Position numbers and translations under genes: made by a program
IMG/VR virus record: IMGVR_UViG_3300044713_000232
Location: 1 to 64,000 of that record
Length of the DNA stretch: 64,000 nt
DNA from: a virus
Strand: one strand, 5' to 3'
The notes under the pieces: model-generated
The model's database searches: none
What the model was told of the DNA's origin: nothing
What the model saw: the letters and a program-made list of their open reading frames with translations, nothing else
In this document: one piece after another, positions 22,315 through 40,702 of the stretch
Layout: every line of letters begins with the position of its first letter
Numbering within the stretch: the stretch's first letter is position 1

Positions 22315-22566
22315 CTACTTTTTCTTGAAGCCGAGCACGGCAGGCTTCGCAGTTGACTTGGCGGCGAGCGCGGCGGTGACGGCGGCGCTGCCCGGCGTCT
22401 TCAGCACGGCGAGGGACATGAAGAAGATGGGCATCACCATGATCAGCACCGTGACGACGTCGAGCTTCTGCCCACTCGCGAGAGCGGCTTGCAGCGCCTT
22501 GATGAGCGCCGGCAGGAAGCTACTGAGGAAGAGCAGGATGTCTTTCCAGTCCAACTTCGCGAGCAT
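22315..22566 (-). CDS. Two-span membrane protein (holin-like or virion)
   Basis: 83 residues. Hydrophobic segments at ~10-30 (ILLFLSSFLPALIKALQAAL) and ~38-56 (VVTVLIMVMPIFFMSLAVL), ending in KKK. Size and topology suit a holin, but the position inside the virion block equally suits a viral membrane protein. Confidence 0.65.
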   Translation of the reverse strand: MLAKLDWKDILLFLSSFLPALIKALQAALASGQKLDVVTVLIMVMPIFFMSLAVLKTPGSAAVTAALAAKSTAKPAVLGFKKK

Positions 22567-22568
22567 GA

Positions 22569-22931
22569 CTACACCTTCTTGCTGGTTCGGCGCCGAGCGC
22601 CGTCGTTGCTAAGCAACTCGTCGATCTTACCTTCGATGCGCGTGACGCGTTCGTCGATACTGCTAGCGAGGCGCTCTACGACTTGGGTGATACTTTTGTG
22701 CTCGGCGCGAGCAACTTCCACCTGCCCCTCGAGCCCCTTGCTCACCAACTCCGCGGCGTGGATACGCTCCTCATGGCGCACTAGCTGCGCCGTCTGCGCC
22801 TTTATGGTCTCAGCCTCGGCGGCTCTCACTTGATCGCGGAGCTTCTCGCGTGAGTGCGCGAGCCCCTGCACCGCCGCTGTGATGAGCGTGAGGAGTAGGG
22901 CGGTGAGCCCGATAAAGGCTTCGAGCGTCAT
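22569..22931 (-). CDS. Membrane-anchored coiled-coil protein
   Basis: 120 residues. N-terminal membrane helix (EAFIGLTALLLTLITAAVQG), then ~80 residues of coiled coil, ending in a basic RRRTSKK tail. Next to the two-span protein, so the pair could be a lysis unit or structural membrane proteins. Confidence 0.65.
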   Translation of the reverse strand: MTLEAFIGLTALLLTLITAAVQGLAHSREKLRDQVRAAEAETIKAQTAQLVRHEERIHAAELVSKGLEGQVEVARAEHKSITQVVERLASSIDERVTRIEGKIDELLSNDGARRRTSKKV

Positions 22932-22938
22932 GCGGTCC

Positions 22939-23802
22939 TTACCGCCGGCGGCGACGCAGACCTCGGTGGTGCACGACGACGCGCTTACCCTTGTGTTTCT
23001 TCAGCCACCACGCGCCGCCCACGATGGCGACGGCTGCGGCAGCAGCGCCGCCGAGGATGAGGAGGTTGATCGACGCGGCCGGCGTGCTGGGGGAGGGCCC
23101 GGGGCCAGGGCCGGGTGAGGGGCCGGGGCCATGCCCGCCGGAACAGCCGGGGGGCGCTCCCGCGCTCAGACTGTTCAACGCCGCCGCCACTGACGGCTCG
23201 TAGTTGCCGGTGTTGATAGGGACCTGATTGCCCGGGTTGGCTGCGTTCCAGGCTGCCTTGAAGGCGTGCACCGCTGAGTTGACGGCGCTGCCGGGTACCG
23301 CGACGTCGGCGCAGTAGTTGTTGATGTCGGCGTTGAGCGCCGAGATGGCGTTGGACGCGAGAGTCGCGAGGCCCGCACCGCCGCCCCCACCGCCGCCGCT
23401 CGCTTCCTGCTGGCACGCGCCGACAGCGTCGGACACGCTGCCCGCGGTGATGACGGCGCCGTCGGGGCAGGTATAGGTGCCGTCACCGTTGTCGACGGGG
23501 AGAGAGCTCTGCCCCGCGCCCACGTGCGGATGTCGCAACGAGACAGGCGCGCCGCTGTGTACTCGCATGCGTCGGTTGACGGCGGCGAGCCCGATGGCCT
23601 CGCTGCGCGCGGCACCCACGCCAGCGCCTACGGCGCCTCCGGCGGTGTAGCTGAAGACGCGGCCGTCCTTTTGGCGGAACCAGTAGCGGCCGTGCGCTAC
23701 GACAGGGCTCGCACCCATGCCGATGACGAGGGGCTTGCCAGCCTCGGTCTTCGTCGGCACGCTTCCGACGCCGACGTGTTCTTGCCATTTCTGCTGAGTC
23801 AT
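22939..23802 (-). CDS. Tail-anchored virion protein with basic tail
   Basis: 287 residues from the ATG giving MTQQKWQEHVGVGS, which overlaps the upstream stop (ATGA) and follows AGAGGAG. The ectodomain is Gly/Ala-rich with a poly-Gly run; a PGPGPSPGPG-like stalk follows, then one membrane helix (INLLILGGAAAAAVAIVGGA) and a positively charged end (KKHKGKR ... RRRRR). This architecture recurs in the block and suits a protein spanning an internal virion membrane with its tail facing DNA. Confidence 0.7.
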   Translation of the reverse strand: MTQQKWQEHVGVGSVPTKTEAGKPLVIGMGASPVVAHGRYWFRQKDGRVFSYTAGGAVGAGVGAARSEAIGLAAVNRRMRVHSGAPVSLRHPHVGAGQSSLPVDNGDGTYTCPDGAVITAGSVSDAVGACQQEASGGGGGGGAGLATLASNAISALNADINNYCADVAVPGSAVNSAVHAFKAAWNAANPGNQVPINTGNYEPSVAAALNSLSAGAPPGCSGGHGPGPSPGPGPGPSPSTPAASINLLILGGAAAAAVAIVGGAWWLKKHKGKRVVVHHRGLRRRRR

Positions 23803-24041
23803 TCGCGAGCCGCTCCTCTCATGAGCCATCCTAGCACGCCCCCAACGAGGAGGCTGCCGATGACGGCACCGCCGGACACGTACGTCGACGATGGCGTCGA
23901 GGGCGCCAAGGGCGCGGATGGCACAGTAGCCGGTGGCGCCGCCGGGGGCGCAGAGGACACCGTCTGCGGCGGGGCCCCGGGCGGCTGCCCTAGAGTCTCG
24001 CCCGGGGCACCGGTACCGGTGTGTAGCGCCAGATTAGCCAC
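23799..24041 (-). CDS. Small tail-anchored protein with Pro/Ala stalk
   Basis: 80 residues from a GTG (VANLALHTGTGAPG), overlapping the end of the upstream structural gene by 8 bases. Pro/Ala-rich stalk, then the membrane helix GGAVIGSLLVGGVLGWLM and RGAARE. Confidence 0.65.
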   Translation of the reverse strand: MANLALHTGTGAPGETLGQPPGAPPQTVSSAPPAAPPATVPSAPLAPSTPSSTYVSGGAVIGSLLVGGVLGWLMRGAARE

Positions 24042-24948
24042 AGGGGCCTCCCGAGGCTCCGAAGAAGCCGCCGTCACTGTCGCACTCGTCGGACTCGTAC
24101 TCGACGATGAGACTTCCGCCGACGGCCCCGATGTAGGCGTTGGGGAAGTTGAGGAGGAACTGCTCCTCAGCGCTGAGACCGTTCGGGAAGAACGTGGAGG
24201 GGGGGCTCAGCGCGATACGGGTCGAGGTGTTCGTCTGGCGCACGCTCGCGAAGAGCGCGTAGATACCGGGGCTGGAGCAGGGGATGTCCAGCGAATCCCA
24301 GGCGTGTGAGTCGTCCCAGGGGGTGCTCACACCGTAGAAGGTACCGAGGTTCGCGAGAGGCTCGCCCGGGGGACGTCCTTGGGCCGGCGGCACGTAGTCG
24401 AGCAAGTCGATGTAGCCGGGGTCGCCCGCGGCGACGAGCATGGTCTCGTAGAGGAGAGACGACGTATCCGTCCAGCGGTACGCCGTGCCGTCGAGGTTCA
24501 CGACGGTGCCGTCGTTCTGGTTCACCGGCTTCGCGACGCCGGCACCTTGGCGCAGCGACTCTTCGGCCGTTGTGGGGATGTACCGAAGGTGCCAGCTCCA
24601 GTTGGCGTCAGACAGCGTAAAGGAGGGGTCGTAGACGGTCTGCCGCACGAAGCGGTTCCCGGTGTCGCTAGTCTGCTCGGCCCAGAGCTGTACGAGGAGC
24701 CGGTAGCCCTTGATGCGCGCACAGCCGCCCGAAGCGCCGACCTTGAAGCTCGCCAGCGCGAAGAGGTATCTGCTTTGCGCGCCGGTGTTCTTCGGCGTCG
24801 CACTCGGCAACGACACGGTTGCCAGCGTCGGCACCTTGAGGCCTAGCGACGCGCCGCCGTTATAGGGATCCGTGCCGATGAACTGCGCCGTCGGATCGAA
24901 GCCGTTGCTCTGAATCTCGACGCGACTCTTAGGGGGCGCCACCTTCAT
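24034..24948 (-). CDS. Candidate capsid/structural protein (304 aa)
   Basis: Starts MKVAPPKSRVEIQSNGFDPT with an excellent AGGAGGTG ribosome site. Beta-rich, few charged clusters, Cys-containing C-terminus (ESDECDSDGGFFGASGGPCG). It is one of three adjacent genes with strong C/G-ending codon use, as expected for abundant virion proteins. A 304/205-residue pair beside a larger one recalls viruses with two capsid proteins, but no homology is claimed. Confidence 0.6.
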   Translation of the reverse strand: MKVAPPKSRVEIQSNGFDPTAQFIGTDPYNGGASLGLKVPTLATVSLPSATPKNTGAQSRYLFALASFKVGASGGCARIKGYRLLVQLWAEQTSDTGNRFVRQTVYDPSFTLSDANWSWHLRYIPTTAEESLRQGAGVAKPVNQNDGTVVNLDGTAYRWTDTSSLLYETMLVAAGDPGYIDLLDYVPPAQGRPPGEPLANLGTFYGVSTPWDDSHAWDSLDIPCSSPGIYALFASVRQTNTSTRIALSPPSTFFPNGLSAEEQFLLNFPNAYIGAVGGSLIVEYESDECDSDGGFFGASGGPCG

Positions 24949-24958
24949 GGGGCACCTC

Positions 24959-25576
24959 CTAGCAGTAGATCTCGGTGTAGACTCCCGTGTCGCAACCGAG
25001 CGCCTGGAGCGCGTTGAGCGCATCGCCTGAGGACATCTCGACGAGCTTGGCCCAGTGGGTCGTGCGGCCCTCGAAGACGAACGTGATCTTCACGGGGAAG
25101 AACGGTAGCGTCACGTTGGACTGGAAGTCCATCCGGATGCCTTGGGTGTTACTGAGTACCCACCCGCACGTCGGGCGCCGAATCTGCGCGATGGGCGTGT
25201 AGTTCGGGTAGATGTCGAACCGCGGGGCGCCGGTGACCTTCAGAGTCGCCTCGAAGTTCGACTGAAGCGAGAAGAAGTAGTCATTCAGGTAGTCGAAGTC
25301 GCCCGAGCCGGTATTCTGGTTGTCGACCTGGTACCGGATGTCGTCGATGATGACGTCCTGAATGAGCTTGACATCCTGCCCCTGGTCCAGCGCGGCGGCC
25401 TGACTGGCCGTGCTGAACGTCGCCGCCACGCGGATGGCGTAGGGTGCCATCGGCACGCCGAGGGCCTTCGCCAGGGCAAGCCGGGGGCTGCCCATCGCGA
25501 GCATCTGGCGGATGTCCTCCGTCGAGCAGCAACAGCCCGCGGCACCGACCTTGAGACAGTAATCCTTCAGACTCAT
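24959..25576 (-). CDS. Candidate capsid/structural protein (205 aa)
   Basis: Starts MSLKDYCLKVGAAGCCCSTE and is beta-rich (IRRPTCGWVLSNTQG, VTLPFFPVKITFVFEG). Eight or more Cys, several near the ends. Encoded between the 304- and 431-residue proteins. Function inferred only from composition and position. Confidence 0.6.
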   Translation of the reverse strand: MSLKDYCLKVGAAGCCCSTEDIRQMLAMGSPRLALAKALGVPMAPYAIRVAATFSTASQAAALDQGQDVKLIQDVIIDDIRYQVDNQNTGSGDFDYLNDYFFSLQSNFEATLKVTGAPRFDIYPNYTPIAQIRRPTCGWVLSNTQGIRMDFQSNVTLPFFPVKITFVFEGRTTHWAKLVEMSSGDALNALQALGCDTGVYTEIYC

Positions 25577-25599
25577 GCTTTGCCTTCGGCTTTTCCGCC

Positions 25600-25657: not shown

Positions 25658-25672
25658 GCCGGAGATGCTGGC

Positions 25673-26968
25673 TTACGAAGCCCAGCCGACCGCGCAACCG
25701 CACTCGGAGCAGATCTGAGCCTGGAGGACGGCGTCCCCCTTGATCTGGTCCGCGAGAGGCTCCGTGATCTCGTACCCTTTGATCTCGACGCTCATGAGGC
25801 CCGTTCCGCCCTTGAACACGTAGTGCTCCGTGTTCTGGGTCTGGAGCACGTCGACGTTGTCCGCCGAGAGCTCGTCGAACGTCGCGCCCGCGCCCTGCGC
25901 GATGAGCGCCTGGCTCGGCGTGATGGCGTAGGGCGGGGTGCCGCCGAAGCCGCCGGTCGCGTCGAACTGCTGACGGAAGAGCGCCACTTCCGCGTTGTTG
26001 TTGTTGGCCTCGAAGATGAGACCCGGCGGAACGCCCGGCTTCAGGATGTACGGCTGCTCGAGGGTACGGAACTCCGAGTTGCCCTTGAGCATGCTGCGGA
26101 GGTCCATGCCGCCGTACGTCGCGTCGACGATGACGTCGTCGAAGGGGCGGAACTTGCCCTGGGTCTCCGTCGAGGTCGTCTGCGCACCGAGGGTGCCGAC
26201 GCGCACGAGGTTCTGCCAGAGGAAGATCTTGTTGCCGCCGATCTTCGTCGGGTCCGTGTAGCGGGCGTTGACCCGGTTCACGAAGTCGACGATCGACACC
26301 TGGCTCGAGGACGCGCTGCCTTCCTGCGCCGCGGGCGGGGTGTAGGCGGTGTCACGGAGCTGCTCGTCCATGATGTTGATGAGCGAACCGTAGGTCCACC
26401 GCAGGTTGTAGCCTCGGGCGAGGTGCCAGAAGCCGTAGTTGACCCACCAGCCCCACTGGAGGAGGGCTCGCCGCATGTTGGCCTGGACCTGCGGCGCGGA
26501 CTGGGTAGCGCCGCCGTAGACGAGGTTCGTCTGGTCGTTGACGCTGTAGTTGTCCGGGCTGTTCGGCATCGCGATGGACGACCCGGGGGTCGGGATCGCG
26601 TTGCCCTGCGCCGTCCAGCACATGGGCTCCGGCTCGAGGTGGACGCCGATGGCGCACGCGAGGACGTACGTCTGGAACTCGCCGTTGATGAGACCATCGG
26701 TCGAGTAGACGTTGTCGACGCCGTTGGGCGAGGTCCCGGAACCCAGAAGCGAGATCTGGTTGCCGAGGGTCTGCGTCACGGCGGCGTTGGTGATGGGTCC
26801 CTCGAACTCCCACTGCACCTTGGCCACCGTCGGCAAGGCGTAGATGGGACAGCTCGTCGCGCTCTTCATGAGAGCGACGATGTCAGCGTTGGGGGTGCCC
26901 TGCCCCAGCCCGGCCCCGAGGGTGAGGCGCGGGTTCTTCTGATTGGGCCTACGAATCATCTGCGGCAT
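25673..26968 (-). CDS. Putative major capsid protein (431 aa)
   Basis: Starts MPQMIRRPNQKNPRLTLGAG. Beta-strand and aromatic-rich (WGWWVNYGFWHLARGYNLRW), low Lys, balanced charge, no membrane helix or enzyme motif, and very regular C/G-ending codons. Followed by two hairpins that could set high expression relative to downstream genes. Best candidate in the window for the main shell protein, but no known capsid fold can be proved by eye. Confidence 0.55.
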   Translation of the reverse strand: MPQMIRRPNQKNPRLTLGAGLGQGTPNADIVALMKSATSCPIYALPTVAKVQWEFEGPITNAAVTQTLGNQISLLGSGTSPNGVDNVYSTDGLINGEFQTYVLACAIGVHLEPEPMCWTAQGNAIPTPGSSIAMPNSPDNYSVNDQTNLVYGGATQSAPQVQANMRRALLQWGWWVNYGFWHLARGYNLRWTYGSLINIMDEQLRDTAYTPPAAQEGSASSSQVSIVDFVNRVNARYTDPTKIGGNKIFLWQNLVRVGTLGAQTTSTETQGKFRPFDDVIVDATYGGMDLRSMLKGNSEFRTLEQPYILKPGVPPGLIFEANNNNAEVALFRQQFDATGGFGGTPPYAITPSQALIAQGAGATFDELSADNVDVLQTQNTEHYVFKGGTGLMSVEIKGYEITEPLADQIKGDAVLQAQICSECGCAVGWAS

Positions 26969-27019: not shown

Positions 27020-28699
27020 TTATTCGCCGACCACTCGGCGGATGTTGGGATTGTAAAGAGGCCGGATGACGCCGGACGAACCGGCTCCCGAGCCAAGAGG
27101 GGCGCCACGGAGGGAGCCCGGAGGAGGTGCCGCCGTTGCGGGCGGATTGCCCGGGGGCGTGAAGACGTTCGGGGGCTTCATGACGCCAGGGCTAGGAGGT
27201 GAAGGCGGAGACTCGCCGGGCGGAACGAACGGGTTGGGGGCCGGAGCCGTCTGAGGCACGCCACCCGCGCGCTGCGCCGTACCCTGCTGCACCTGAGCCA
27301 GAGTGGTTCCGGCGCAGCAAGCGCCGACGCCCGTCTGGCAGTTGGTGCACTGGCACCCGGAGCCCATGAGGCCGACCGAGACGCCGCCCGCCGACGGAGC
27401 GGCGAGCTGTGCGGGCGCGCTCGAAGGCGTGAGCACCGACTGCGCACTGACCTCGGGCATGAAGAGTCGCTGCCCGAAGGGTGCGTTGTTGCGGAGCAGG
27501 TATGCGACGCCGTCTGAGAGCACCTTTCCGCCCGTGCGCATCAGCGCGCCGAAGCCGAAGAACTGGACGCAAGAGCGCAAAGACGAGCTCTCGATCATCC
27601 CGCCCGCGGCGAGCGGCACGACACCGAGGCCGAGGCCCGCGGCGAGGCGCATCCACTGTCCCGCACCCCACATGGGGCCGATGACGTAGGTGGGGTTGAG
27701 GTGGCCGTTGGCGCCCGGGTCGACGTAGATCTCGTTGCCCGAGCTATCCTTGGCGCCGGTGTCCTTGAGCGCGTGCGTCGCGAGCAGACGATCGACGACT
27801 TCGGCAGCGCCGAACCCGACGAGACCGCACACGCCGCCGAGCACGCCATCCATCAAGCTGATGGGGTTCTCCATCGCGCCTCGGCGAGAGTGCCGGTGGC
27901 GACGGTGGCGACGGGGTGCCTCGTGGCTGCGGTGGCCGCGCACGTAGACGCGCTTACGGCTGCCACGGCTCTTCTTGCGGTAATAACCGCGCACGGAGTG
28001 CTTGTGGTGACCGGGCCGGCGGCGCTTGCTGCTACGGCGCCGCTTGACGGAGCCACGGCGCCTGCGACGACGCGGGGCCTCAACCGCATGAGCGGCGTGC
28101 TTACGGCGGCGCTTGCCACCCTTGCGGCGACGCTTGCGCGGGGCTTCCCACGCCGACGTCATGCCGTGGCTCTGCGAACCCCGACCGAGGCGGCGCTTGC
28201 GGGTGCGGGCAGCCTTACGGCCAGCCGCCACGCGTTTGGCGCTCTTGCGGTGATGAACCGCGTGCTTGCGCGGCTTCCGACAGCGCCTCCGGCCCCGCGG
28301 GCTCTTCAGCTTCCCGTTCTTACAGCTACGCTTACGCTTTCGCGCCATGGTCGAGGACTCCCTTGAGCGGTGCTTCTTGCTCCGGTTTCTCCGACGAGGC
28401 TTCTCCCCTGCACGGTGAGAAGTGTGCACTGTCTTACGCGCCCGTGTCAAGCGACGCGTACGTTTTTTCTCAGAAGCGCCTCGGCGCTTAGCGCGCCTCT
28501 TCTTCGCAGCGTTGCAAACGGCCCAAGGATTGGCTTTCTTGCCGCGACGCTTGTTGGAGCGCTTTACACCCTTGACACAGCGCTCGAACTTCTTGCGACT
28601 CCACGGCTTTTTGCCTTTGGAGCGCTTGGCGCGTCGACGCTTACTTGCTGCGGACACTTCGTCCTCCTCGCGCTGCATGTAATCAATATAGTCAGGCAT
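27020..28699 (-). CDS. Protamine-like basic protein with membrane segment
   Basis: 559 residues. Residues 1-~75 hold a KFERCVKGVKR ... NPWAVCNAAK unit of a type I associate with phage structural proteins. Residues ~60-290 are extremely Arg/Lys/His-rich (RRRRKGGKRRRKHAAHAVEA and similar repeats). A hydrophobic stretch follows (GVLGGVCGLVGFGAAEVVDR, and a second near 350). The end is Pro-rich with CQCTNCQTGVGACC. It looks like a membrane-bound DNA-condensing protein that ties the genome to a virion membrane. Confidence 0.7.
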   Translation of the reverse strand: MPDYIDYMQREEDEVSAASKRRRAKRSKGKKPWSRKKFERCVKGVKRSNKRRGKKANPWAVCNAAKKRRAKRRGASEKKRTRRLTRARKTVHTSHRAGEKPRRRNRSKKHRSRESSTMARKRKRSCKNGKLKSPRGRRRCRKPRKHAVHHRKSAKRVAAGRKAARTRKRRLGRGSQSHGMTSAWEAPRKRRRKGGKRRRKHAAHAVEAPRRRRRRGSVKRRRSSKRRRPGHHKHSVRGYYRKKSRGSRKRVYVRGHRSHEAPRRHRRHRHSRRGAMENPISLMDGVLGGVCGLVGFGAAEVVDRLLATHALKDTGAKDSSGNEIYVDPGANGHLNPTYVIGPMWGAGQWMRLAAGLGLGVVPLAAGGMIESSSLRSCVQFFGFGALMRTGGKVLSDGVAYLLRNNAPFGQRLFMPEVSAQSVLTPSSAPAQLAAPSAGGVSVGLMGSGCQCTNCQTGVGACCAGTTLAQVQQGTAQRAGGVPQTAPAPNPFVPPGESPPSPPSPGVMKPPNVFTPPGNPPATAAPPPGSLRGAPLGSGAGSSGVIRPLYNPNIRRVVGE

Positions 28700-28763: not shown

Positions 28764-29240
28764 TTACGGAGCGACGAGACCGCGGTCGTCGAGGTGACAC
28801 CAATCGGGCAGCTCGAGGCGATACGCCTTCTCTGCGCCGGTGCCACGGCTGTATAGAACTGCATCGCCGGAGCGAAACAGCGACGCGAGACTGCGCTTGC
28901 CGAAGGTGTGCTTGAAGTCGCCGGGGTAGCGCGTGCCGTCACGGTAGTACCAGATACGGCGCACGAAGCCGACGCGATGCCACTGACAGAGATCCGACGG
29001 CGGTGTGTCGACTGCGCCGCGATGCAGCTTGTGCCCCTTGCCGAAGTAGTCGACTGCTTCACTATCAGCTGTCTCATAAGGCGCGTCAGAGTGCGTGAAG
29101 CGCATCACGAGAAGGCTGCAACGGGGCCACAAGGCGCCTTCGGGGTCGTGGAGCATTGCCGCGTCGGGGTGCGGCAAGACGTCGCGCCCGTCGTGCATCT
29201 CAAACAAGATGTCGAAGCCTTTAGCGATGAGGCGCGCCAC
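28764..29240 (-). CDS. Unknown protein in virion block
   Basis: 158 residues from a GTG with an AAGAGGT site (ARLIAKGFDILFEMHDGRDV). Trp- and His-rich globular protein without membrane helix. No family recognised. Confidence 0.65.
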   Translation of the reverse strand: MARLIAKGFDILFEMHDGRDVLPHPDAAMLHDPEGALWPRCSLLVMRFTHSDAPYETADSEAVDYFGKGHKLHRGAVDTPPSDLCQWHRVGFVRRIWYYRDGTRYPGDFKHTFGKRSLASLFRSGDAVLYSRGTGAEKAYRLELPDWCHLDDRGLVAP

Positions 29241-29252: not shown

Positions 29253-30989
29253 TTACTGCGCTTGCCCATACCTTCGACAGCGGCTCGTCACGATGCTCAA
29301 GCCGTAGATGGCGGCGGCGGCGACGGCGACGACAGCGACGCCTTTCACGATGGAGGTCACCGCATCTGCCGTGGTAGGCGGGGGCACGTAGTTGGGGTTG
29401 CGCTGGTCATCGCTGCGCAGCGGGGGCAAGTCGGGGGCCTGATTGCCGCCGGTGCTCTTGCAGTGTTGATCCACCAGAGCGCGCCACTTCTTGTAGATGT
29501 TCTCGAAGTCGTAGCCGCGCTGAATCTCGGCGTCGGCATCGCAGAGCGGTATGTCGGCGTTGTACCAGTTCATGAACGCGATGCGGTCTGCGATGTAGTC
29601 GTACTTCTGCGTCAGCGTGAAGCCGTCGGGGGCACCGTTCGGGAACGCCGCCGTCGCCGCACAGACGCTCCTGCCATCCTTGCAGAGCGCGCAGTTGTCG
29701 ACGTCGTCGGTGAGCTGGTCCCAGCCCACCAGGAGGCGGGTCTTCTGACCGACGAGCACATCGATGTTGCAGCTGATGCCGGGGATGTGCACAGCACCGG
29801 CGCCTGTAGCGCCGACGCCGGCAGGCAAGGCGCACGCGAGCTGCACCTTCAGATCCCACAGCTGTCGGGCGCGCGCGTAGTCTTTCAAGCGGCTGTAATC
29901 CGCGGGCGTAAGCGCCTGTGCGCTGAAGGCTTGCCAGTCAGCCATCGCGCTGGCGAAACCGGCGGCGTCGCTGGCGGATAGATTGGTGCACGCCTGCACC
30001 GCCGCCGCACTCTGCTTCCACGCGCTGTCGACCTGGGCTTTCAGCCCATCGACAGAAGCCTGGTCAGGCGTCTGCCCGATGCCAGCGCGGCACCAGCCGG
30101 TGCCGGTGTTGTACTCGATGCCGTGCATGCCGGAGCGGAACCACGTGCCGCTACGGAAGATGGTGCTGCCTGCCTGCGGGCGCCCGGTGTCGACGGCGGT
30201 GTCGTCGCCTGGCGCGGGGCGCGACATCGAGCCGCCACTGTTGTCGCCAGGCGCCGGGCGCGAGACGTAACCGCTGCCGCCTTGCTTGAAGCCGCCGCTC
30301 GGTGAAGCTCCCATCGTAATCAACTGCGCTCCTGAAATGCCGACGGGGCCCACGGGGGCCGTGTCGAGCGGGTTGTAGAAGGTCTGCCCCGGGACGTTCG
30401 GGGGACACCCCATGCTCCCCAGAGGCCCGACGCGGTAGGTATTGTTGGCGCCGTCGACGCCCAGCTTGTTGCCGCCTTCGTCGATGGCGATCAGCAGCAC
30501 ATGTGCCTGCTCCTTGAAGGGCTGCACACAGATCATCACCGGAATCGCGAAGGATAGGATCATCGCGCCGAGTGCCGCGGTGGCATCATCGCAATCGCCA
30601 CGTCGAAGGCACAGACCCGCTTTGCCGCGGAGGCACATCGTCGCGGATGCCGACTGTACCTGCTCCGTCTTAGCGGGGTCGGAGGCGTACATGACGAGGC
30701 GTCTGTATTCGTCGAGGCACGCCTGGCACGTCTGCGCGACGGAGGGGCGTCTTGCTCGACCGTCGAAGCCGGCGGCGCGCAACGCCTCCGCGGCGATGCC
30801 CTGCACGTCGGGGTCGTTCTGCCCTTCGCGAATCTTCTGCGCGACGGCGTCCACGCTCGCCCCGGCACCGACTGAGCCGTCGGCGTAGGGGACGACGTTG
30901 ATACGCGCACCTTCGGCTTGAGCCCTCGGGATGCCGGGGGTGAAAGACTGACTGAGCCCTAGGCCGATGCCGCGAATGCCGTTACGCAC
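29253..30989 (-). CDS. Tail-anchored virion protein with transglutaminase-like domain
   Basis: 578 residues. Around residues 95-180, LRRGDCDDATAALGAMILSF, then QAHVLLIAIDEGG and LGVDGA match the Cys-His-Asp triad layout of transglutaminase-like (papain-fold) domains. Later parts carry many Cys. The end has a Pro linker, one membrane helix (GVAVVAVAAAAIYGLSIV) and RCRRYGQAQ. GTG start, with TACACT 6 nt upstream. It may crosslink or cut virion or host-envelope proteins. Confidence 0.65.
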   Translation of the reverse strand: MRNGIRGIGLGLSQSFTPGIPRAQAEGARINVVPYADGSVGAGASVDAVAQKIREGQNDPDVQGIAAEALRAAGFDGRARRPSVAQTCQACLDEYRRLVMYASDPAKTEQVQSASATMCLRGKAGLCLRRGDCDDATAALGAMILSFAIPVMICVQPFKEQAHVLLIAIDEGGNKLGVDGANNTYRVGPLGSMGCPPNVPGQTFYNPLDTAPVGPVGISGAQLITMGASPSGGFKQGGSGYVSRPAPGDNSGGSMSRPAPGDDTAVDTGRPQAGSTIFRSGTWFRSGMHGIEYNTGTGWCRAGIGQTPDQASVDGLKAQVDSAWKQSAAAVQACTNLSASDAAGFASAMADWQAFSAQALTPADYSRLKDYARARQLWDLKVQLACALPAGVGATGAGAVHIPGISCNIDVLVGQKTRLLVGWDQLTDDVDNCALCKDGRSVCAATAAFPNGAPDGFTLTQKYDYIADRIAFMNWYNADIPLCDADAEIQRGYDFENIYKKWRALVDQHCKSTGGNQAPDLPPLRSDDQRNPNYVPPPTTADAVTSIVKGVAVVAVAAAAIYGLSIVTSRCRRYGQAQ

Positions 30990-33109: not shown

Positions 33110-34444
33110 CTATCGATGCAGCTTACGCATCTCGCGTTTCACGGCGCCGACGACTTTTCCGCCGGTCTTACCCCACGCCCACTCGACCGTCTTGCCGAAA
33201 GCCCAGCCTTTGGCGAGCGCGACAAGTCCGATACCACCGAGAACAGCGACACCGGTACCAGCTGCAACTTTCACCGCCGTGGCGCCGACTGTCGACTTCG
33301 CCGGGGCCCCGGGCAGCGTGACGTTGCTCGCCTGAGGCGGCGGGATCAACGGCCCCGTATTGACGACGAGGTTGCCGTTCTGGATCGGTACGAGACTGTC
33401 GCCTTTGATGTTGTTGACGACATCGGTGACGAGCATGTGCTCGTAGCCGACGGTGAAGTCGGAGCAGGCCGGGTCCACTGCGAGAGCCAGCGGCGACGGC
33501 GCCATCAGGAACGGGGTGCCCGGGGCGTGCGCCATGTTCCACAGTCGAATCGCGTGCGCGAGCACCTGCCAATCTGGTTGCGCCTTGAGCCCGTTGAGGG
33601 CGTACTCCTGATTCGCTTTCCACGCGCTGAAGAAGTGCCTGAGGAAGTCGCCGGCAAACGTGCCCGCAGGCGTCTGTAGCGAACACGAGATCGTATTGTA
33701 CGCAGGGAACGCGACGTCGATGAGGCGGTAACCGAAGCCGGGGATGCCGCCCGACCATTGGCCGTATCCGGGAATACCGCTCCATCCGTAGAGAGAGCTG
33801 TCGAACCAGTGTGCGTCGTTGGGGTTGTTCACCGAAGGGAACGACTTCCAATTCGCCGTACCCGGCCCCGCTGTTACGGGGTCCAGCCCGAACACAGCGA
33901 CGCAACCCACGGAGTAGTTCGGCGCCTGTGAGAAGGTGGTGCCGGGGCACCCGGGGATGCTGAACCCCGGGCTTCCGCCGCCGAGCAGCAGATCGCTGAT
34001 GATGCCGATGGCTCCGACGATGGCGGCACCAGCGCCAGCGCTGACGGCACCCGCCAACACTGCGACGCCGATCATCGTGCCGGTGAAGAGCTGCACCGCT
34101 TGTGGTGCCGAGACGCCGTTGTTGGCAGCTTGGATGAGTTGTGTCACCGTGCTGAACGCGCCCTGGATCGTGTGTCCGGCGATGGTGTACTGCTGCGCGG
34201 CGTTGAGGATGTCCGCTCCCTGCGCTTCGGGGGCCTGCGCCAGCTGCCCCACGGCGTTGGCGAAGTCGTTCTGCGCCAGCTGGTACGCGAAAGAGCCCGG
34301 AGCGTTGCCCTCGGCCTGTAGCTGTGCCCCGACCGGGCCCCAGCTCGCCAGAAAGGCTGCGTTGTTCGTGAAGTTGCCGAAGGAGCCTCCCTGACCGACG
34401 CCGCGACGCAGGTGGGGCATAAGGTACAGCTCTCTCGCGTGCAT
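33110..34444 (-). CDS. Large virion membrane protein
   Basis: 444 residues. A hydrophobic double segment near 130-165 (GTMIGVAVLAGAVSAGAGAA, IVGAIGIISDLLL), a globular Trp/Tyr-rich domain, then a C-terminal membrane helix (VAAGTGVAVLGGIGLVALAK) and a basic tail (KREMRKLHR). TAAGCT lies 7 nt before the ATG, in a divergent promoter shared with the plus-strand gene at 34489. Confidence 0.7.
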   Translation of the reverse strand: MHARELYLMPHLRRGVGQGGSFGNFTNNAAFLASWGPVGAQLQAEGNAPGSFAYQLAQNDFANAVGQLAQAPEAQGADILNAAQQYTIAGHTIQGAFSTVTQLIQAANNGVSAPQAVQLFTGTMIGVAVLAGAVSAGAGAAIVGAIGIISDLLLGGGSPGFSIPGCPGTTFSQAPNYSVGCVAVFGLDPVTAGPGTANWKSFPSVNNPNDAHWFDSSLYGWSGIPGYGQWSGGIPGFGYRLIDVAFPAYNTISCSLQTPAGTFAGDFLRHFFSAWKANQEYALNGLKAQPDWQVLAHAIRLWNMAHAPGTPFLMAPSPLALAVDPACSDFTVGYEHMLVTDVVNNIKGDSLVPIQNGNLVVNTGPLIPPPQASNVTLPGAPAKSTVGATAVKVAAGTGVAVLGGIGLVALAKGWAFGKTVEWAWGKTGGKVVGAVKREMRKLHR

Positions 34445-34488: not shown

Positions 34489-35460
34489 ATGAAAGCCTCT
34501 ACTAAGGTGCTCCTGGGTGTCGGCGTCGCCGCCGCGCTAGGGCTCGGATTCGTCTTGATGAGCGGCAAAGCCACCGGCGGCGGTTCGCCGGGCAGCGGCG
34601 GTAACGCGGGGCTGCCCGCCAACATCCCGCTCATCGTGGGGCAGCACTACAAGCTCGTCCTCCCCGATATGCCCTCGCAGGGGCAGTCGTGGGTCATGAC
34701 GACTTCGGCACCCGGAATCGTCAGCGTCGTCGACGTCGGCTATGCCGGCGGCGCACCGACGTCAGGGCCGGGGCTACACGCGTTCACGCTGACCGGTATC
34801 TCGGCGGGCACCGCGACCATCACGGCGACGTTGATGAACAGCTCCAACGGCAAGCCTGTCTCGGGCGTATCGCCACTGACCGCTTCGGTGTCTGTCGTCG
34901 CCGGCATCGGCACCGGCACGCCGCCAGGCGGTGGCGGCAAGGGGGGTGTTGCTACCATCGGCGGTGTGACTGCACCCGCGCAGAAGGGCGGCATGACTGC
35001 CACCGGCGGCTTGAAGACGAAGGGCGGGGTCAACACTGGCGGCATCATCAACCAGCCTCCGCCTCCTCCACCGCCACCTCCCCCGCCGCCTCCGGCGAAG
35101 ACGATCACGCTCACGTGGCCCGCCTCGTTGAATCAGGCGCTCTCCAACGGACCGCAGCTCTCGAGCAGCCCTGTGTATCTCAACGCCGGTGATACACTCG
35201 TCGTCGACATCACCGGGGATACGACGTCGCTACCGACGTGCAACCAGTGGGCTGGCTGCGGCGTGTGGGGTGTCACGGGTACACCCCCGACGCTCGTATG
35301 GGTTCCCCAGGGGCTCGCGACGTCGTCAGCCTACGCGCTGACGTACATCGGGGCCGTCGTCTTCAACGCGGTGCAGACTGGTACCGGTACGCTGGTACTC
35401 ACGAAGACGTTCCAGAACGGCGCCGTCGTGACGTGGAGCATTCCGGTTTCTGTCTCTTAG
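34489..35460 (+). CDS. Membrane-anchored Ig-like protein, chagasin/I42-like first domain
   Basis: 323 residues. N-terminal membrane helix (VLLGVGVAAALGLGFVLM), then an Ig-like domain with GQHYKLVLPDMPSQGQSWVM and GPGLHAFTLTGISAGTATIT, resembling chagasin-type cysteine-peptidase inhibitors (I42). A Gly-rich linker and a run of 13 Pro lead to a second beta domain. The only plus-strand gene in the virion block; its 3' end overlaps the gene on the other strand. Could be a host-protease inhibitor, a virion spike or a superinfection factor. Confidence 0.65.
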   Translation: MKASTKVLLGVGVAAALGLGFVLMSGKATGGGSPGSGGNAGLPANIPLIVGQHYKLVLPDMPSQGQSWVMTTSAPGIVSVVDVGYAGGAPTSGPGLHAFTLTGISAGTATITATLMNSSNGKPVSGVSPLTASVSVVAGIGTGTPPGGGGKGGVATIGGVTAPAQKGGMTATGGLKTKGGVNTGGIINQPPPPPPPPPPPPPAKTITLTWPASLNQALSNGPQLSSSPVYLNAGDTLVVDITGDTTSLPTCNQWAGCGVWGVTGTPPTLVWVPQGLATSSAYALTYIGAVVFNAVQTGTGTLVLTKTFQNGAVVTWSIPVSVS

Positions 35461-35734
35461 ACGCGCCATTGGTGACGGCAGCGGCAGCCATGCCGGCAGC
35501 GATGCCGTCGGCGATATCATTGTTCTGCACTTCCTCGAGCTTGTCGGCGAGTGCGCGTAGCGCCACGGGGATGTCGTGGGGATTGATGTCGACCTTCGGC
35601 AGCGGGCCGCAGTATGAGAGCGCGACGTTGCCGCCGGCTCCCGAGCTGAAACCGAGCTTGAAGTCGACGATGACAGGCGGTGTGTTCATAATGCCGTAAC
35701 GTTTGCCGCGCTTGATTCGCTTCTTCGTCATCAC
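35399..35734 (-). CDS. Small unknown virion-block protein
   Basis: 111 residues starting MMTKKRIKRGKRYGIMNTPP with a basic head, beta middle, and helical ALRALADKLEEVQ. GGAGG lies before the ATG. The C-terminal part overlaps the end of the convergent plus-strand gene. Confidence 0.6.
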   Translation of the reverse strand: MMTKKRIKRGKRYGIMNTPPVIVDFKLGFSSGAGGNVALSYCGPLPKVDINPHDIPVALRALADKLEEVQNNDIADGIAAGMAAAAVTNGASKRQKPECSTSRRRRSGTSS

Positions 35735-37188
35735 AGACCTCCACCTTCGTTGTTGCCTTCCGGTTCCTGAGGCGGCGCACTAGCGCCGACGCCAGCGTCG
35801 ACTGCACCGCGGGGAATCTCTCGCACCACCTGCGCCGGCTGTTGCGGCGCTTCGCCCAGACCGGCCTTCTGATTCCCTAAACGCCCGAGTATCTCCAGAG
35901 CGCGGCTTCCAAGCTCGATAGCCTTCTCGGCAAGCCCGGGGTTTGCCATGAGGAAGCCCTCGCGCGAGAAGCCGCCGGTCTCCTTGTCGACGGCGTACTT
36001 TGCAGGGTGCCCGAGGAAGTTGGTCTCAGGAATCGGAATCACCTCGAAGGGCAACGAGTCCTCGGGCTTCGGGGGCGTCACGACAGGCTCCGCCACGAGA
36101 GTTTCGGGTGGAGGCTCCCGAGGGCCGACATCACCATCGTCGTAGACGTCGTTGAGCTCCTTGGCGAGACTGCGCAGCTCTCTTCCGAGGCCGACGACGG
36201 TTTTGAAAGCGCTAACGCCAGCGTGCAGCTCCGAGGCTACGTTCGTCGACGTCTGGGGCGGCGTGGCTCCGACGCCGACCTTCACGACGCCGAGGCGCTG
36301 AAGTAGCGCCACCATGCGCTCCTCGAAGTCTTGCGGCGGCGCCGCAGGCACCGCGCCGAAGCCAGGCGCCACAGGAGGTGCAGCCGTCGGCATGGGGCCG
36401 CCCTTCGTCAACGCGGCAACGAGCTGCTGGAGCTGTCCGGAGAGGTAACCCACCTGGCCGCGCAGGTAGCCGACTTCGTCATTCGGAGCAGGCGTCGAAG
36501 GCGGCTGCGCGCCGAAGCCGTAGCTGGGCGCCGGGTACACGGGCGCCTGCTGTGCCTGACGCCGCGGGGGCGGCGGGGGCGGTTCCTCCGCAGCGAAGTC
36601 GTCTTCGTAGGGGCTCGGCACAGAGACGCCGCCGTAGGGCTTTTTGTTGCGCATCTGCTCGGCGGCGCGCCTAAGCCCGACGACTTCCTCGCTGGAGGGC
36701 ATATTGAGCCTTCCTCTGCCGATGATGCGCCCCGTGGTCTTCCACACGAAGCGCACCTCGTACTCTTCGGGGCCGCGCCCGGAAGGCACGTGGTAGTAGT
36801 CCTCGATGGCGCGGCGCAAAGCGTCGCCAGGCGATACGCCTTTGCCTCCGCAGATCATGGTGCCCTCGATAGCGCCAGGCAGCGTCGTCGCCTGCGGCGA
36901 GAAGCGAACTACCTGCACGTTGATGTCGTAGGGCGTCTTCGCCGGTTGCATGCGGGGGATGCGCTGGAGAATCTCCGGCCACATGAGCTCCGCCTCGCGG
37001 CTGTTCCAGCCCTCGCCCGGGGGCTTGTGCGTGCCGCCCTTATCGTTGCGGGACTTACGCTTCTTGCCGTTCGGCTTCGCCGCAGGTGCAGCGGCTTCCT
37101 GCTGCTGCGCCTCTTCCTCTGTCTCTTCCTCGCCTTCGGCGAGAGTTTCCTCGTCGAAGTTCTCGAGGCCGTCGTCTTCGGCCGGCAT
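35731..37188 (-). CDS. Large virion-block protein with acidic N-terminus
   Basis: 485 residues. First ~35 residues strongly acidic, then a Lys/Arg patch, a globular domain (residues ~55-170), a long Pro-rich region including PPPPPPRR, a coiled-coil-like GYLRGQVGYLSGQLQQLVAA, and a disordered acidic end. Architecture suits a scaffold or tegument-like structural protein. No family recognised. Confidence 0.65.
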   Translation of the reverse strand: MPAEDDGLENFDEETLAEGEEETEEEAQQQEAAAPAAKPNGKKRKSRNDKGGTHKPPGEGWNSREAELMWPEILQRIPRMQPAKTPYDINVQVVRFSPQATTLPGAIEGTMICGGKGVSPGDALRRAIEDYYHVPSGRGPEEYEVRFVWKTTGRIIGRGRLNMPSSEEVVGLRRAAEQMRNKKPYGGVSVPSPYEDDFAAEEPPPPPPRRQAQQAPVYPAPSYGFGAQPPSTPAPNDEVGYLRGQVGYLSGQLQQLVAALTKGGPMPTAAPPVAPGFGAVPAAPPQDFEERMVALLQRLGVVKVGVGATPPQTSTNVASELHAGVSAFKTVVGLGRELRSLAKELNDVYDDGDVGPREPPPETLVAEPVVTPPKPEDSLPFEVIPIPETNFLGHPAKYAVDKETGGFSREGFLMANPGLAEKAIELGSRALEILGRLGNQKAGLGEAPQQPAQVVREIPRGAVDAGVGASAPPQEPEGNNEGGGL

Positions 37189-37199
37189 GTGGATTCCTT

Positions 37200-38003
37200 T
37201 CAGCTAAACGTCGGAGCTGGCGCAAAGACCTTGCAAGACAGCTGCGTCTCGAAGTAGTTGGTCAGCAGGTTGGCAAGGGGGCCTTGGAGATTGTTAGCGG
37301 CGGGATACCTGTAGAGGTACCCGGGCGTCGTCGACACGCTGGGGGCGTTGTCGTATCCAGAGCCGCCGTACAGCAAAGCCAGCGCGTTGATCTCCATGCT
37401 CGGCACAGCGAGAGCGCCGGCACCGCCAGTGGAGCCGACGATGAGGATGAGGGGCTGCGCCGTATATCCAGAGCCCTTCGAGACCACCGGCACCGTGGCG
37501 ATGGAGTTACCGGCGCCCGTGGTGGGCGTACCGAAGACAGCGGCGACTCCGCCGGGGCCGAGGCCGCCAACAGGCACCGCGGTCAGAGTGCCCGTGTACC
37601 CCAAACCGCCGTCGATGATGGTAACGGTATTGACATCCAGCGTACACGTGGCTTGTGCGGGGTGCAGCGGCACCGCATCGCCGGGCTGGGGCGTGAAGGT
37701 GATGGTGGGCGGTTCCGCCAAACCGTTGCCTTTGCTGATGAGCGTCAGACTGCCTACTGGCGCGCCGTGGCTACCGGGCAGCAAAGCTGCGCTGATGCTC
37801 GGCACTCCTGACTCGTAGCTGAAGGTCAGCGTACGCACGACGGGGCTCGTACCGCTCATGCTGTCACCGGTGAGCACGAGACCGATCTTGTTGAAGAGAT
37901 CCACCGGCAGCGGCACCGCAGCGAACGCGGCGCTCAACGTCGTCGACGACGCGGAGCCTGTGGGGATGATGTTGTAGCGCAGAGTTGCCGTCGTGAAAGC
38001 CAT
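37200..38003 (-). CDS. Beta-repeat structural protein
   Basis: 267 residues with repeated GxGYxxxP-type units (GLGYTGTLTAVP, GSGYTAQPLILI, GSGYDNAPSVST) each followed by strands, as in surface or fibre-associated phage proteins. Starts MAFTTATLRYNIIPTGSASS. Its ATG overlaps the upstream stop. Confidence 0.7.
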   Translation of the reverse strand: MAFTTATLRYNIIPTGSASSTTLSAAFAAVPLPVDLFNKIGLVLTGDSMSGTSPVVRTLTFSYESGVPSISAALLPGSHGAPVGSLTLISKGNGLAEPPTITFTPQPGDAVPLHPAQATCTLDVNTVTIIDGGLGYTGTLTAVPVGGLGPGGVAAVFGTPTTGAGNSIATVPVVSKGSGYTAQPLILIVGSTGGAGALAVPSMEINALALLYGGSGYDNAPSVSTTPGYLYRYPAANNLQGPLANLLTNYFETQLSCKVFAPAPTFS

Positions 38004-38602
38004 CAGGAGACTCCCTCTTCATCGCCGCCATCGTCTTCCACGTCGGCTTCGTCGTCGAGCTTCTGTGCGATCTGCTCGAGAGTCAGCGCGGCGCCGGTGG
38101 CGGCGTCGATGCCGCCATTCTTGGCGAGATTGCGCAGGTACTCCACGCACTCCTCGCGGCCCTCGGCGCGGCCGATGTCACGGGGGCTCATCTCCGACTC
38201 GAGCGCGTTGAGCTCATCGACGACACTTTCGCGGAACGTCGCGAGGCTCATCGTCTCGACGCCGTAGCTAGGGGCGTCCTTGCGGAGGATGTAGCAAACG
38301 TAGGGGCCCGGCTTCGCGGGGGCCCCGTAGGCGCGAACCTCCTCACTGGATTCAGAGTGGAACATCGCCATGATCGTGTACGCGGCGTTGACCGGGGCGG
38401 GCTTGCCCCACTCCCACGCCGTGTCGCCCCACTGAAAGCGCATCAGCTTCCTGAGATCGGCCATCTGCACATCGGCCTCTTGTTTGATCTCGTCGGCGAG
38501 CTCCTTGGGGGTGAGCGGCTTCGTAGGCACCGCCTGCGGTTGGTGGACGGAGGTATCTTGTGCGGCGGTGTCGAGCACCGCTGCCTCTGCGGGCTGCGTC
38601 AT
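38003..38602 (-). CDS. Acidic virion-block protein
   Basis: 199 residues, MTQPAEAAVLDTAAQDTSVH, with a helical middle (ELADEIKQEADVQMADLRKL) and a very acidic C-terminus. First gene after a TACGCT promoter with an operator-like palindrome. A scaffold-type role is possible but unproven. Confidence 0.65.
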   Translation of the reverse strand: MTQPAEAAVLDTAAQDTSVHQPQAVPTKPLTPKELADEIKQEADVQMADLRKLMRFQWGDTAWEWGKPAPVNAAYTIMAMFHSESSEEVRAYGAPAKPGPYVCYILRKDAPSYGVETMSLATFRESVVDELNALESEMSPRDIGRAEGREECVEYLRNLAKNGGIDAATGAALTLEQIAQKLDDEADVEDDGGDEEGVS

Positions 38603-38632
38603 GGGGAAGAGCGTAAAGCGCTATGCGCTTTA
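38603..38632 (-). promoter_or_regulatory. Leaderless-type promoter with overlapping palindrome
   Basis: TACGCT (38615-38610) ends 7 nt before the ATG at 38602. The perfect palindrome TAAAGCGC-TAT-GCGCTTTA (38614-38632) overlaps the upstream edge of the hexamer, a good place for a repressor. Confidence 0.6.
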
Positions 38633-38668
38633 GCGCAAGTAGCGGCGCACTTTATTACGCGCGAAAGT

Positions 38669-39958
38669 CTATCGCTTTGCGCGAAAAAGTTTACGCAGGC
38701 GAATGCTGGTGAACTGGTCGAGCCCGACGACGATGTGGTCAACGAGCTTGAGATTGTTGCCGAAAGGCTTGCGCGCCTTCTCGATCGCCTTCGTGAGGTC
38801 TTTGTCGGCCTGGCTCGGCGTCGCCTTTCCAGAAGGGTGGCAATGCGCAATGACGAATCCCTTCGCCTGACGCGCCAACGCCGCACCCAACGCGGCGCGC
38901 ATGACGTCGTCGATTCCGACGTTGACGCGGTCGATCTGGCCCCGGGCGACCTCGTCGATACCGCGCAGGTGCCCGTGCAAGTCGAGGCTGATGACGAGGA
39001 AGACCTCCTGCGGCTGCGAGACGCAGTACTGTCGAATGAGCTTGTAGATGGCCGTGGGGGTCGTGAGGGGGCCGATCTGGTCAGCGAGCGCGACGCAGGC
39101 GCGGAACTTCTCTTCGTCTATGCGCACCTCGGTGAAGGGGGCGCACATGGGCGCGACGGGTACCGACGTCTGCGGCGCCAGCGGCGTCGACGGAAGTAGC
39201 GCACCCGTCTTGTTGTGCTTCTCGGCGAAGCGCTTCGCCTGTGCGACAGTCTCGAAGCTGCGCAGCTCGCTGGCATCGAGCGTCAATACCCACGGGAAGC
39301 GCTTCAAGCGGCGTGACACCCGCTGGTGCTGCGGTGAGATGCGGTAGCTCGACGTCTTGTTGACGGCACGTGCGTAGAGACCGTGCTTGTCGCGGTGCCA
39401 CTTGAGAGGCTTGACAGCGCCGCGAGGCGTCTCGCCTGACATAGCGAAGCGCATGCGCGTATCAGGCGCGTCGACGAACTTCACGTACCCACCGCGGCTG
39501 TCGGCGAGAGCCTTCGCTTCGGCGTAGTCCTTGGTGACGACGCCGAGACGCTTTCCGTTTGCATCCACGGCGACGTAGTCACGCGCCTCAGTCGCAGCGC
39601 TGATAGCGATAGCGTCGACGGGGCGCGCCTGTACGAAGTCGTGGCGCGCAGCGATGTGCCACTTACCCGCCTCGAAGAACAGCACCTTGCGCTTGTGCCC
39701 CTCGTTGGAAGGGGGCGAATAGAGGTAGAACGGCCCGTCCGGCGAGGCATTGGGCCTGATGGGGTAGTAGTAGACGTAACCGTCAGCTTTGGCCTTCGCT
39801 AGAGCGCTACTGAGCTCGGGGAAGTCGGCCGCCTTCTGCTCGAGAGCGCACTCGCCCATCGGGCACGGCACCTGCGGCGCGTGGGGGCACCCGCCTCCCG
39901 CCGGACACTCACCGACCGGCCCGGCACCTGCTTCATAGACAACGGGGACTCGCGGCAT
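38669..39958 (-). CDS. RadC/JAMM-domain protein heading the virion block
   Basis: 429 residues. The N-terminus has Cys pairs (ECPAGGGCPHAPQVPCPMGE), then a repeat-like YVYYYPIRP ... WHRDKHGLYARA region. Residues ~290-425 form a RadC-like MPN/JAMM domain with AHCHPSGKATPSQADKDLT, i.e. the H-x-H...S...D metal motif. RadC proteins have unclear function; JAMM domains can cut isopeptide bonds. Context hints at a virion maturation or structural-operon enzyme. Promoter: TAGAAT 6 nt before the ATG. Confidence 0.75.
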   Translation of the reverse strand: MPRVPVVYEAGAGPVGECPAGGGCPHAPQVPCPMGECALEQKAADFPELSSALAKAKADGYVYYYPIRPNASPDGPFYLYSPPSNEGHKRKVLFFEAGKWHIAARHDFVQARPVDAIAISAATEARDYVAVDANGKRLGVVTKDYAEAKALADSRGGYVKFVDAPDTRMRFAMSGETPRGAVKPLKWHRDKHGLYARAVNKTSSYRISPQHQRVSRRLKRFPWVLTLDASELRSFETVAQAKRFAEKHNKTGALLPSTPLAPQTSVPVAPMCAPFTEVRIDEEKFRACVALADQIGPLTTPTAIYKLIRQYCVSQPQEVFLVISLDLHGHLRGIDEVARGQIDRVNVGIDDVMRAALGAALARQAKGFVIAHCHPSGKATPSQADKDLTKAIEKARKPFGNNLKLVDHIVVGLDQFTSIRLRKLFRAKR

Positions 39959-39973
39959 GCAGAGATTCTAGCA
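39959..39973 (-). promoter_or_regulatory. Leaderless-type promoter
   Basis: TGC-TAGAAT (TAGAAT at 39970-39965), 6 nt, ATG at 39958. Just upstream an AGCACC-aac-GGTGCC inverted repeat overlaps the TGC element. Confidence 0.6.
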
Positions 39974-39991
39974 CCAACGGTGCCGCTAGAG

Positions 39992-40702
39992 CTAGCGCTT
40001 GCGGGCCACCACGACATGCTGAAACGCTAGCGCTTCGGGCCAGAGCGATACCAACTGCTCCTCGAGATGCCTCACGTGGCGCTTGTAGAAGCCGTAGATG
40101 CGCGCGTCGAGGCGCCGTGTATCGGCGTCGATATCGAGCCAGCGACGCATCCTCGCGAGACCTTCGCGCGCGATACCCGGCGTCTGGTCGACGGCGTCGA
40201 CGACGAGACCGGCGTCGAGCACCAGCTGTATCGCGCTCGCGCGCGTGAAGAAGCGCAGGTGCGTGATGTCGCGGATACCTTTGTCGCTGTACTCGAAGTT
40301 GCCTTTCAGCAAGTGAAGCCGCATGCCCCAGTTGGCGACATTGGGCAACGAGACGATGACGCTGCCGTTGTGCACCAAGAGCGGTAGGAAGCGCCTCAGC
40401 GTCGTCAGAGGCGCCTTCACGTGCTCCAGCACATCACCGAAGACGAGACACTCGACGCGCTTGTCGAGGATGCGATTCATACTCCACTCTTGCTCGATGT
40501 CGATGTCGTAGACATCATCGAGACGCATCGAGGCGATGTGCGTTGATGCTCTGAAGTTGTCGATGCCGATGACATAGGCGCCGTCGTTGTGCGCCGCGAG
40601 AGTGTTCTGACCGGCGCCACAGCCGATGTCGAGGATGCTCTTAGGGCGTAGGCGCCGCAGCTGTCGTGCGATGGCGGTGTTGACTTCCTCGCCGTATGTC
40701 AT
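39992..40702 (-). CDS. Class I SAM-dependent methyltransferase
   Basis: 236 residues. Motif I SILDIGCGAGQNTLAAHNDG, acidic post-I VIGIDNFRAS, and CLVFGDVLEHVKAPLTTLRR as motif IV. Resembles small-molecule or glycan methyltransferases of the Methyltransf_11/23 type rather than a DNA enzyme. Coupled by ATGA to the preceding gene. Confidence 0.8.
   Translation of the reverse strand: MTYGEEVNTAIARQLRRLRPKSILDIGCGAGQNTLAAHNDGAYVIGIDNFRASTHIASMRLDDVYDIDIEQEWSMNRILDKRVECLVFGDVLEHVKAPLTTLRRFLPLLVHNGSVIVSLPNVANWGMRLHLLKGNFEYSDKGIRDITHLRFFTRASAIQLVLDAGLVVDAVDQTPGIAREGLARMRRWLDIDADTRRLDARIYGFYKRHVRHLEEQLVSLWPEALAFQHVVVARKR

Follow-up and report, generated by a model that had tools for sequence, protein, structure and literature searches.

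A membrane-protein-rich gene block in a complete 75.5-kb virus genome and its probable place in an undescribed tailless lineage

What kind of particle is built by a virus whose presumed structural region is crowded with membrane proteins and holds no hallmark gene of the tailed phages? The question is raised by positions 22,315 to 40,000 of IMG/VR record IMGVR_UViG_3300044713_000232 (G000; 75,631 bases), bases 1-64,000 of which form the window analysed here; the remaining 11.6 kb were also examined. A sequence-only reading of the window had earlier proposed a new type of membrane-containing virus with a genome over 64 kb. On balance, the evidence is judged to favour a complete, circularly mapping double-stranded DNA virus of ~75.5 kb, belonging to an undescribed lineage of tailless, probably lipid-containing viruses of 69-80 kb whose assembly would be driven by condensation of the genome and would need no packaging motor. 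The host is probably a bacterium. No account of such a group turned up in the literature searched.

Genome completeness and the search for packaging genes

As the argument rests on absences, the completeness of the genome matters. The two record ends overlap by 144 bp with one mismatch (Table 1) and a single gene spans the junction uninterrupted; the genome is therefore complete at ~75.5 kb, circular or terminally redundant, and indeed larger than 64 kb. Its coding density is 0.88. The block is carried by 14 distinct viral genomes, this one and 13 relatives (contig 3300050821_016907, a partial duplicate of G005, was not counted). Nine of these, this genome included, close flush at 69-80 kb with end overlaps of 90-172 bp; closure is ambiguous in G002, which has a tandem repeat at its ends, and in G416, and the three further contigs are fragments.

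A scan of 111 proteins against Pfam and PHROG gave, among the best 25 families of each, families of replication, nucleotide metabolism, lysis and fibres. When the 72 uncharacterised proteins were rescanned against both collections with all families listed, no terminase, portal, tape-measure, sheath or tail-tube match was obtained, and there was a lone weak match to a "tail needle" (E = 0.007). By these scans no terminase, portal or tail module lies in the 64-kb window, as had been claimed, nor in the remaining 11.6 kb, and the genome has no baseplate module. The earlier reading had named such genes elsewhere in the same genome as grounds for giving it up; neither this genome nor its closed relatives yielded any. 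The PHROG profile of TerL (phrog_2) was without a match in 13 records (seven near genomes and six far records), whereas the positive controls gave a match in 13 of 14 genomes; terminase family PF03237 was not found either. Matches of relatives to a "portal" family, phrog_15528, were rejected, being confined to a short part of the profile and, in G416, overlapping a clear Nudix hydrolase gene. The tailless character is well supported.

A packaging ATPase of the FtsK/HerA type, which had been put forward as the alternative to a terminase, was not found in this genome by a search with PF01580 (FtsK_SpoIIIE) or by a survey of Walker-A motifs; PF01580 was absent from all five genomes tested, this one included. 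The conserved Walker-A proteins of the seven near genomes are a Dda-like helicase, a Sak4-like AAA_24 protein, VapE (in six) and an SNF2 helicase. All are of replication type, with none left as a TerL candidate. The AAA_24 protein was ruled out as a motor, as it matches a Sak4-like annealing protein best. In the closed genome G417 and its sister G416, no called gene has a Walker-A motif in a credible P-loop context; genomes of ~75 kb without a credible P-loop ATPase are very unusual. The lineage offers one candidate translocase, a HerA-like ATPase in G415 (L082:14057-15838; DUF87, E = 1.7e-6); present in a single member, it was ruled out as a lineage-wide motor.

The membrane-protein-rich block and its conservation

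Among proteins of at least 90 residues, a predicted membrane helix is present in 9 of the 18 encoded in 22.3-40 kb and in 6 of the 49 encoded in the flanks of the window (Fisher p = 0.002), which bears out the earlier count of at least nine helix proteins in 22-40 kb. A C-terminal helix followed by a net-basic tail was found in the proteins at 22939, 29253, 32011, 33110 and 53591 and, beyond the window, at G000:68508; the first four had been so described, together with one at 32599, whose helix turned out to be central. Two tailed-phage controls, a small sample, had 0 and 1 proteins of this kind. Over the whole genome, membrane proteins make up a fraction of 0.27, which is unexceptional, not being clearly above the 0.23 of the BcepNazgul control, and the claim is therefore limited to the block and to the pattern of C-terminal anchors with basic tails. 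The membrane topology of the block proteins is conserved among orthologues. The first 280 residues of the protamine-like membrane protein already seen in the window (gene 46) include 76 Arg, 42 Lys and 14 Asp/Glu; a hydrophobic middle part and an end rich in Pro follow. The protein is encoded at the same position in G416 and in G414, where the call is shortened N-terminally. The membrane-anchored transglycosylase expected at 53591 was likewise recovered (Table 1).

The order of the block is fixed: it comprises a transglutaminase-like protein with an anchor, the protamine-like membrane protein, the three proteins of 431, 205 and 304 residues, and proteins with C-tail anchors; gene order 42-43-44-45-46-47-48 is kept throughout the lineage, and block members diverge to ~17% identity. 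The 431-residue protein had no match in phage collections or in 72,556 plasmids. Among viral contigs, its search returned two close relatives and then further members, the link to the latter being a 39%-identical fragment on a 4.4-kb contig, L006, binned in a metagenome-assembled genome of Chloroflexota. L006 holds this virus module only, and its binning is either a host clue or an error; a Chloroflexota host is unproven, no second match having been found in 400 genomes of the phylum. A profile of the 304-residue protein reached six more distant contigs. Profile-profile comparison (hhalign) of the farthest members gave 97.7% for the 431-like, 97.8% for the 205-like and 100% for the 304-like protein.

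The replication genes of the near members are PolA, SNF2, Sak4-like and VapE. Among the far members, G416 (L087/L088) and G417 (L093) have a rolling-circle Rep of the HUH type (motif HVHIH) and a beta-clamp-like protein, G415 has a HerA-like and other ATPases, and G412 has other helicases. When viruses swap replication genes, the part that persists is normally the particle. Since the block persists while the replication genes differ completely between branches, the shared block is best read as the virion module. Fibre and beta-helix proteins and a C-tail-anchored EEFSGSLP-repeat protein also recur. A 731-residue C-tail-anchored protein (L001:6009-8204, minus strand) has ~11 copies of an EDFAGSLPQEE-like repeat, which is found again in G002 and in G416, the most distant member.

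The capsid candidates are three adjacent soluble proteins, for which the open reading frames, the minus strand and the coordinates of the earlier reading stand; that they are beta-rich is a crude propensity estimate only. The 431-residue protein has strong codon bias, as do two of the three overall, and is 80-89% conserved in two close relatives. The 304-residue family is the most widely detected gene of the putative module, and is unrelated to the 205-residue family at profile level. None of the three has a PHROG or Pfam relative, and profile searches with the 431-, 205-, 304-, 485- and 578-residue families gave no credible match in the PDB. With hhalign, no match was obtained to PRD1 P3 or to one HK97-type head protein, and probabilities were <1% against P23-77 VP16 and VP17, a comparison of low power with single template sequences. 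AlphaFold2 models of the 431-residue protein, from alignments that left out distant homologues, had a mean predicted local distance difference test score (pLDDT) of 29 with three sequences and 39 with eight; Foldseek of the low-confidence model found no match in the PDB or BFVD.

In gene 48, Cys133, His163 and Asp179 are invariant and correspond to a transglutaminase-type triad; one orthologue weakly matches Transglut_core of Pfam, and the C-terminal anchor is present in six of seven orthologues. The 287-residue C-tail-anchored family occurs in most virus relatives, frequently in two copies. The 485-residue protein is possibly scaffold-like. The RadC-like JAB protein adjoins the block in 7/7 near genomes and could be a maturation protease rather than a repair protein.

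Table 1. Features of the window, with positions, strand and basis of assignment (aa, amino acids)
Feature	Positions	Strand	Basis or remark
Left record end	1-144	.	Recurs at G000:75488-75631, 143/144 identical; map closes at ~75,487 bp
~557-aa fibre/receptor-binding-like gene crossing the closure (part)	1-897	-	Sequence
503-aa fibre-like protein, terminal Peptidase_S74 self-cleaving chaperone	1269-2780	-	C-terminal sequence
83 aa, two helices, basic end	22315-22566	-	Topology
120 aa, N-terminal helix, then coiled-coil-like stretch	22569-22931	-	Sequence, topology
287 aa, C-tail anchor, RRRRR end	22939-23802	-	Topology
304-aa soluble protein, capsid candidate	24034-24948	-	Profile matches in 14/14 virus contigs
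205-aa soluble protein, capsid candidate	24959-25576	-	Homologues; hhalign for far members
431-aa soluble protein, candidate major capsid protein	25673-26968	-	Homologues, codon bias
559-aa protamine-like membrane protein (gene 46)	27020-28699	-	Composition
158-aa conserved protein of the putative virion module	28764-29240	-	Homologues
578 aa (gene 48), transglutaminase/cysteine-protease-like domain, C-tail anchor	29253-30989	-	Alignment, topology
176 aa, two helices	31473-32003	-	Topology
166 aa, C-tail anchor, basic tail	32011-32511	-	Topology
56-aa open reading frame, single central helix, basic Pro-rich end	32599-32769	-	Sequence
436 aa, two helices, amphipathic basic end	33110-34420	-	Topology; in 7/7 near genomes
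323 aa, N-terminal anchor, probably chagasin-like (Inhibitor_I42)	34489-35460	+	Sequence inspection
485 aa, charged start, Pro-rich middle, conserved C-terminal domain	35731-37188	-	Alignment
267 aa, Gly-rich repeats common to phage virion proteins	37200-38003	-	phrog_701, E = 2.1e-10
191 aa, conserved	38003-38578	-	Homologues
396 aa, RadC-like JAB metalloprotease domain, variable N-terminal part	38669-39859	-	Pfam
214 aa, probable peptidoglycan-active Rv2525c-like glycoside hydrolase	52443-53087	-	Pfam family placed by inspection
154-aa lytic transglycosylase (SLT_3, E = 2e-27), C-terminal anchor, basic tail	53591-54055	+	Pfam, topology

Proposed assembly and rival explanations

Of the membrane-containing virus type first proposed, the genome size, the lack of tailed-phage hallmarks and the conserved membrane-anchored block are upheld; virion lipid and motor-free packaging are what we infer. 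The 431-, 205- and 304-residue proteins would form the shell. The C-tail-anchored proteins would lie in the virion membrane, with domains that point outward or link up with the shell and basic tails directed toward the DNA. The protamine-like membrane protein would neutralise and condense the genome at the inner face of the membrane, and the shell and membrane would form around the condensed DNA; because assembly would proceed in this way, a packaging motor would be unnecessary. The fibre, beta-helix and S74 proteins may serve in host binding. For the anchored transglycosylase, the glycoside hydrolase and the transglutaminase-like enzyme, the role may be to breach or alter the envelope or to form cross-links in the particle.

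Several points weigh against this reading. The particle, its putative shell and its putative lipid are deduced here from genes, and the C-tail anchors could belong to proteins of the host membrane rather than of the virion. As G415 encodes a HerA-like ATPase, a motor may exist that other members have lost, have replaced or borrow from the host. There are resemblances to tailed-phage parts in the Gly-rich protein at 37200 as well as in the fibre, beta-helix and S74 proteins, the AlphaFold2 models of the 431-residue protein are unusable at pLDDT 29 and 39, and the extreme members of the lineage are tied in by profile methods, not by plain BLAST. A bolder version, in which the lineage is new at realm level, with a shell fold unlike HK97 and the known jelly-roll families, no viral motor, and a genome enclosed as protamine-like condensation goes hand in hand with the assembly of membrane and shell, is conceivable, though less likely than not. 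With a jelly-roll fold, the lineage would be a very deviant member of the Varidnaviria.

Membership of the Varidnaviria is rather unlikely. It would imply a double- or single-jelly-roll capsid in the style of PRD1 or P23-77, a hugely enlarged genome and a packaging ATPase that is unrecognised or host-borrowed. The transglycosylase, taken as virion-associated, the membrane proteins and the neighbouring capsid-sized genes (205 and 304 residues) are as in P23-77, and the strand propensity of the candidates and the HerA-like ATPase of one distant relative point the same way; however, the profile comparisons with PRD1 P3, VP16 and VP17 and the PDB searches were negative, no packaging ATPase was found in this genome, and described prokaryotic double-jelly-roll viruses have genomes of ~7-18 kb (PMC5894146). 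The many C-tail-anchored proteins, the condensing membrane protein and the lack of a motor would also suit a pleomorphic or spindle-shaped enveloped particle devoid of a regular shell; the three soluble proteins would then be matrix or spike proteins, and the protamine-like protein would wrap the DNA in membrane. Such a particle, including one of the Pleolipoviridae or Plasmaviridae type, is improbable, since three soluble proteins as large as capsid proteins are conserved, two of which show strong codon bias, and since the narrow range of 69-80 kb suggests a fixed internal volume.

It is highly improbable that these are very divergent tailed phages whose HK97 capsid, portal and terminase lie past detection. 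A size of ~70-80 kb is ordinary for such phages, and phage-type replication genes and fibre, S74 and beta-helix proteins are present; yet the genomes are complete, TerL is missing from the 13 records in a search that succeeded in nearly all controls, and no Walker-A protein could fill its place. The "portal" matches of relatives are Nudix domains, no tape measure, sheath or baseplate module was seen, and much of the block is membrane-anchored. Cyanophage PA-SR01, reported to be chloroform-sensitive and possibly lipid-containing, was ruled out as a relative, as it has a terminase (PMC10286775). The integrase, Cpn10 and lipoprotein-like genes look bacterial, as they might in a plasmid-like or chimeric non-viral element or an assembly artefact. 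This explanation is scarcely credible: the contigs are independent, nine genomes close flush at similar sizes, the coding density is 0.88, a syntenic block is conserved, lysis-type enzymes and fibres are encoded, and the 431-residue protein is unmatched in 72,556 plasmids.

Genes outside the block and comparison with known viruses

The ~557-residue protein that crosses the closure and a 468-residue protein (G000:64805-66211) have a common N-terminal motif, MGANRSS..NT.LAYL. In the whole protein set, Peptidase_S74 was matched at E = 9.1e-13 and a PHROG tail fiber at 2e-28. The SNF2-type helicase (5621-8188, minus strand) has 855 residues versus 525-613 in six relatives; the extra stretch starts with Cys-Pro-Pro and stops before Cys-Asp-Gly, and therefore probably represents an intein that contains a homing endonuclease domain. 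PolA of G001, at 1203 versus ~850 residues, may contain a second intein. A Chaperonin-10 homologue (21621-22004, minus strand) lies near the block and is kept in 7/7 near genomes and G415. Phosphate-induced-protein-1 (Phi_1) and matrixin-like proteins are encoded at 56413-57513 and 55853-56341 (minus strand); the signal-peptide lipoprotein style of the former looks myxobacterial and may be a hint of the host.

Large-genome double-stranded DNA viruses are generally thought to pump their DNA into preformed shells by means of a terminase or an FtsK/HerA ATPase, and the motor-less prokaryotic icosahedral viruses described so far are, to our knowledge, small. If the favoured reading of motor-free, condensation-driven assembly is true, complete genomes of 69-80 kb, nearly all with neither type of motor and with the membrane-protein-rich virion module as the only genes in common, contradict this size rule, and condensation by an anchored protamine-like protein becomes a concrete and testable mechanism. 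Because PHROGs, phage records and the PDB do not contain the module, such viruses are missed by annotation that relies on terminase, portal or known capsids; for its part, the 304-residue protein is a usable marker for further members.

We know of no described kind of virus in which a genome of 70-80 kb that lacks both a terminase and a packaging ATPase also encodes an anchored protamine-like protein. The Caudoviricetes (e.g. PMBT14) share with this genome PolA, a Sak4-like protein, a Cas4-like exonuclease and S74 fibres, and differ from it in their terminase, portal, HK97 head and tail genes, which were undetected here. P23-77 (Matshushitaviridae), tailless and with an internal membrane, has adjoining capsid-sized genes (VP16 of 173 residues beside VP17 of 291), a transglycosylase, membrane proteins and a circular genome, as here; its genome, however, is 17 kb rather than 75 kb, its packaging ATPase adjoins the capsid genes, and VP16 and VP17 have no sequence or profile similarity to the present candidates. 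PRD1 (Tectiviridae) likewise has a membrane-anchored transglycosylase, single-helix proteins and no tail, but its genome is linear and 15 kb long, and its P9 packaging ATPase and P3 capsid protein have no detected counterpart here. The lack of an FtsK/HerA ATPase in this genome is a departure from PRD1, PM2 and P23-77 alike. No protamine-like protein or array of C-tail anchors is known to us in the Odin group or in the Finnlakeviridae (FLiP). The genomes of these double-jelly-roll viruses are among the smallest of DNA viruses, at most 17 kb in the FLiP group versus ~75 kb here (PMC5894146). As in the present genome, they encode no packaging ATPase of their own, and it has been considered that their capsid may form around the genome (PMC5894146).

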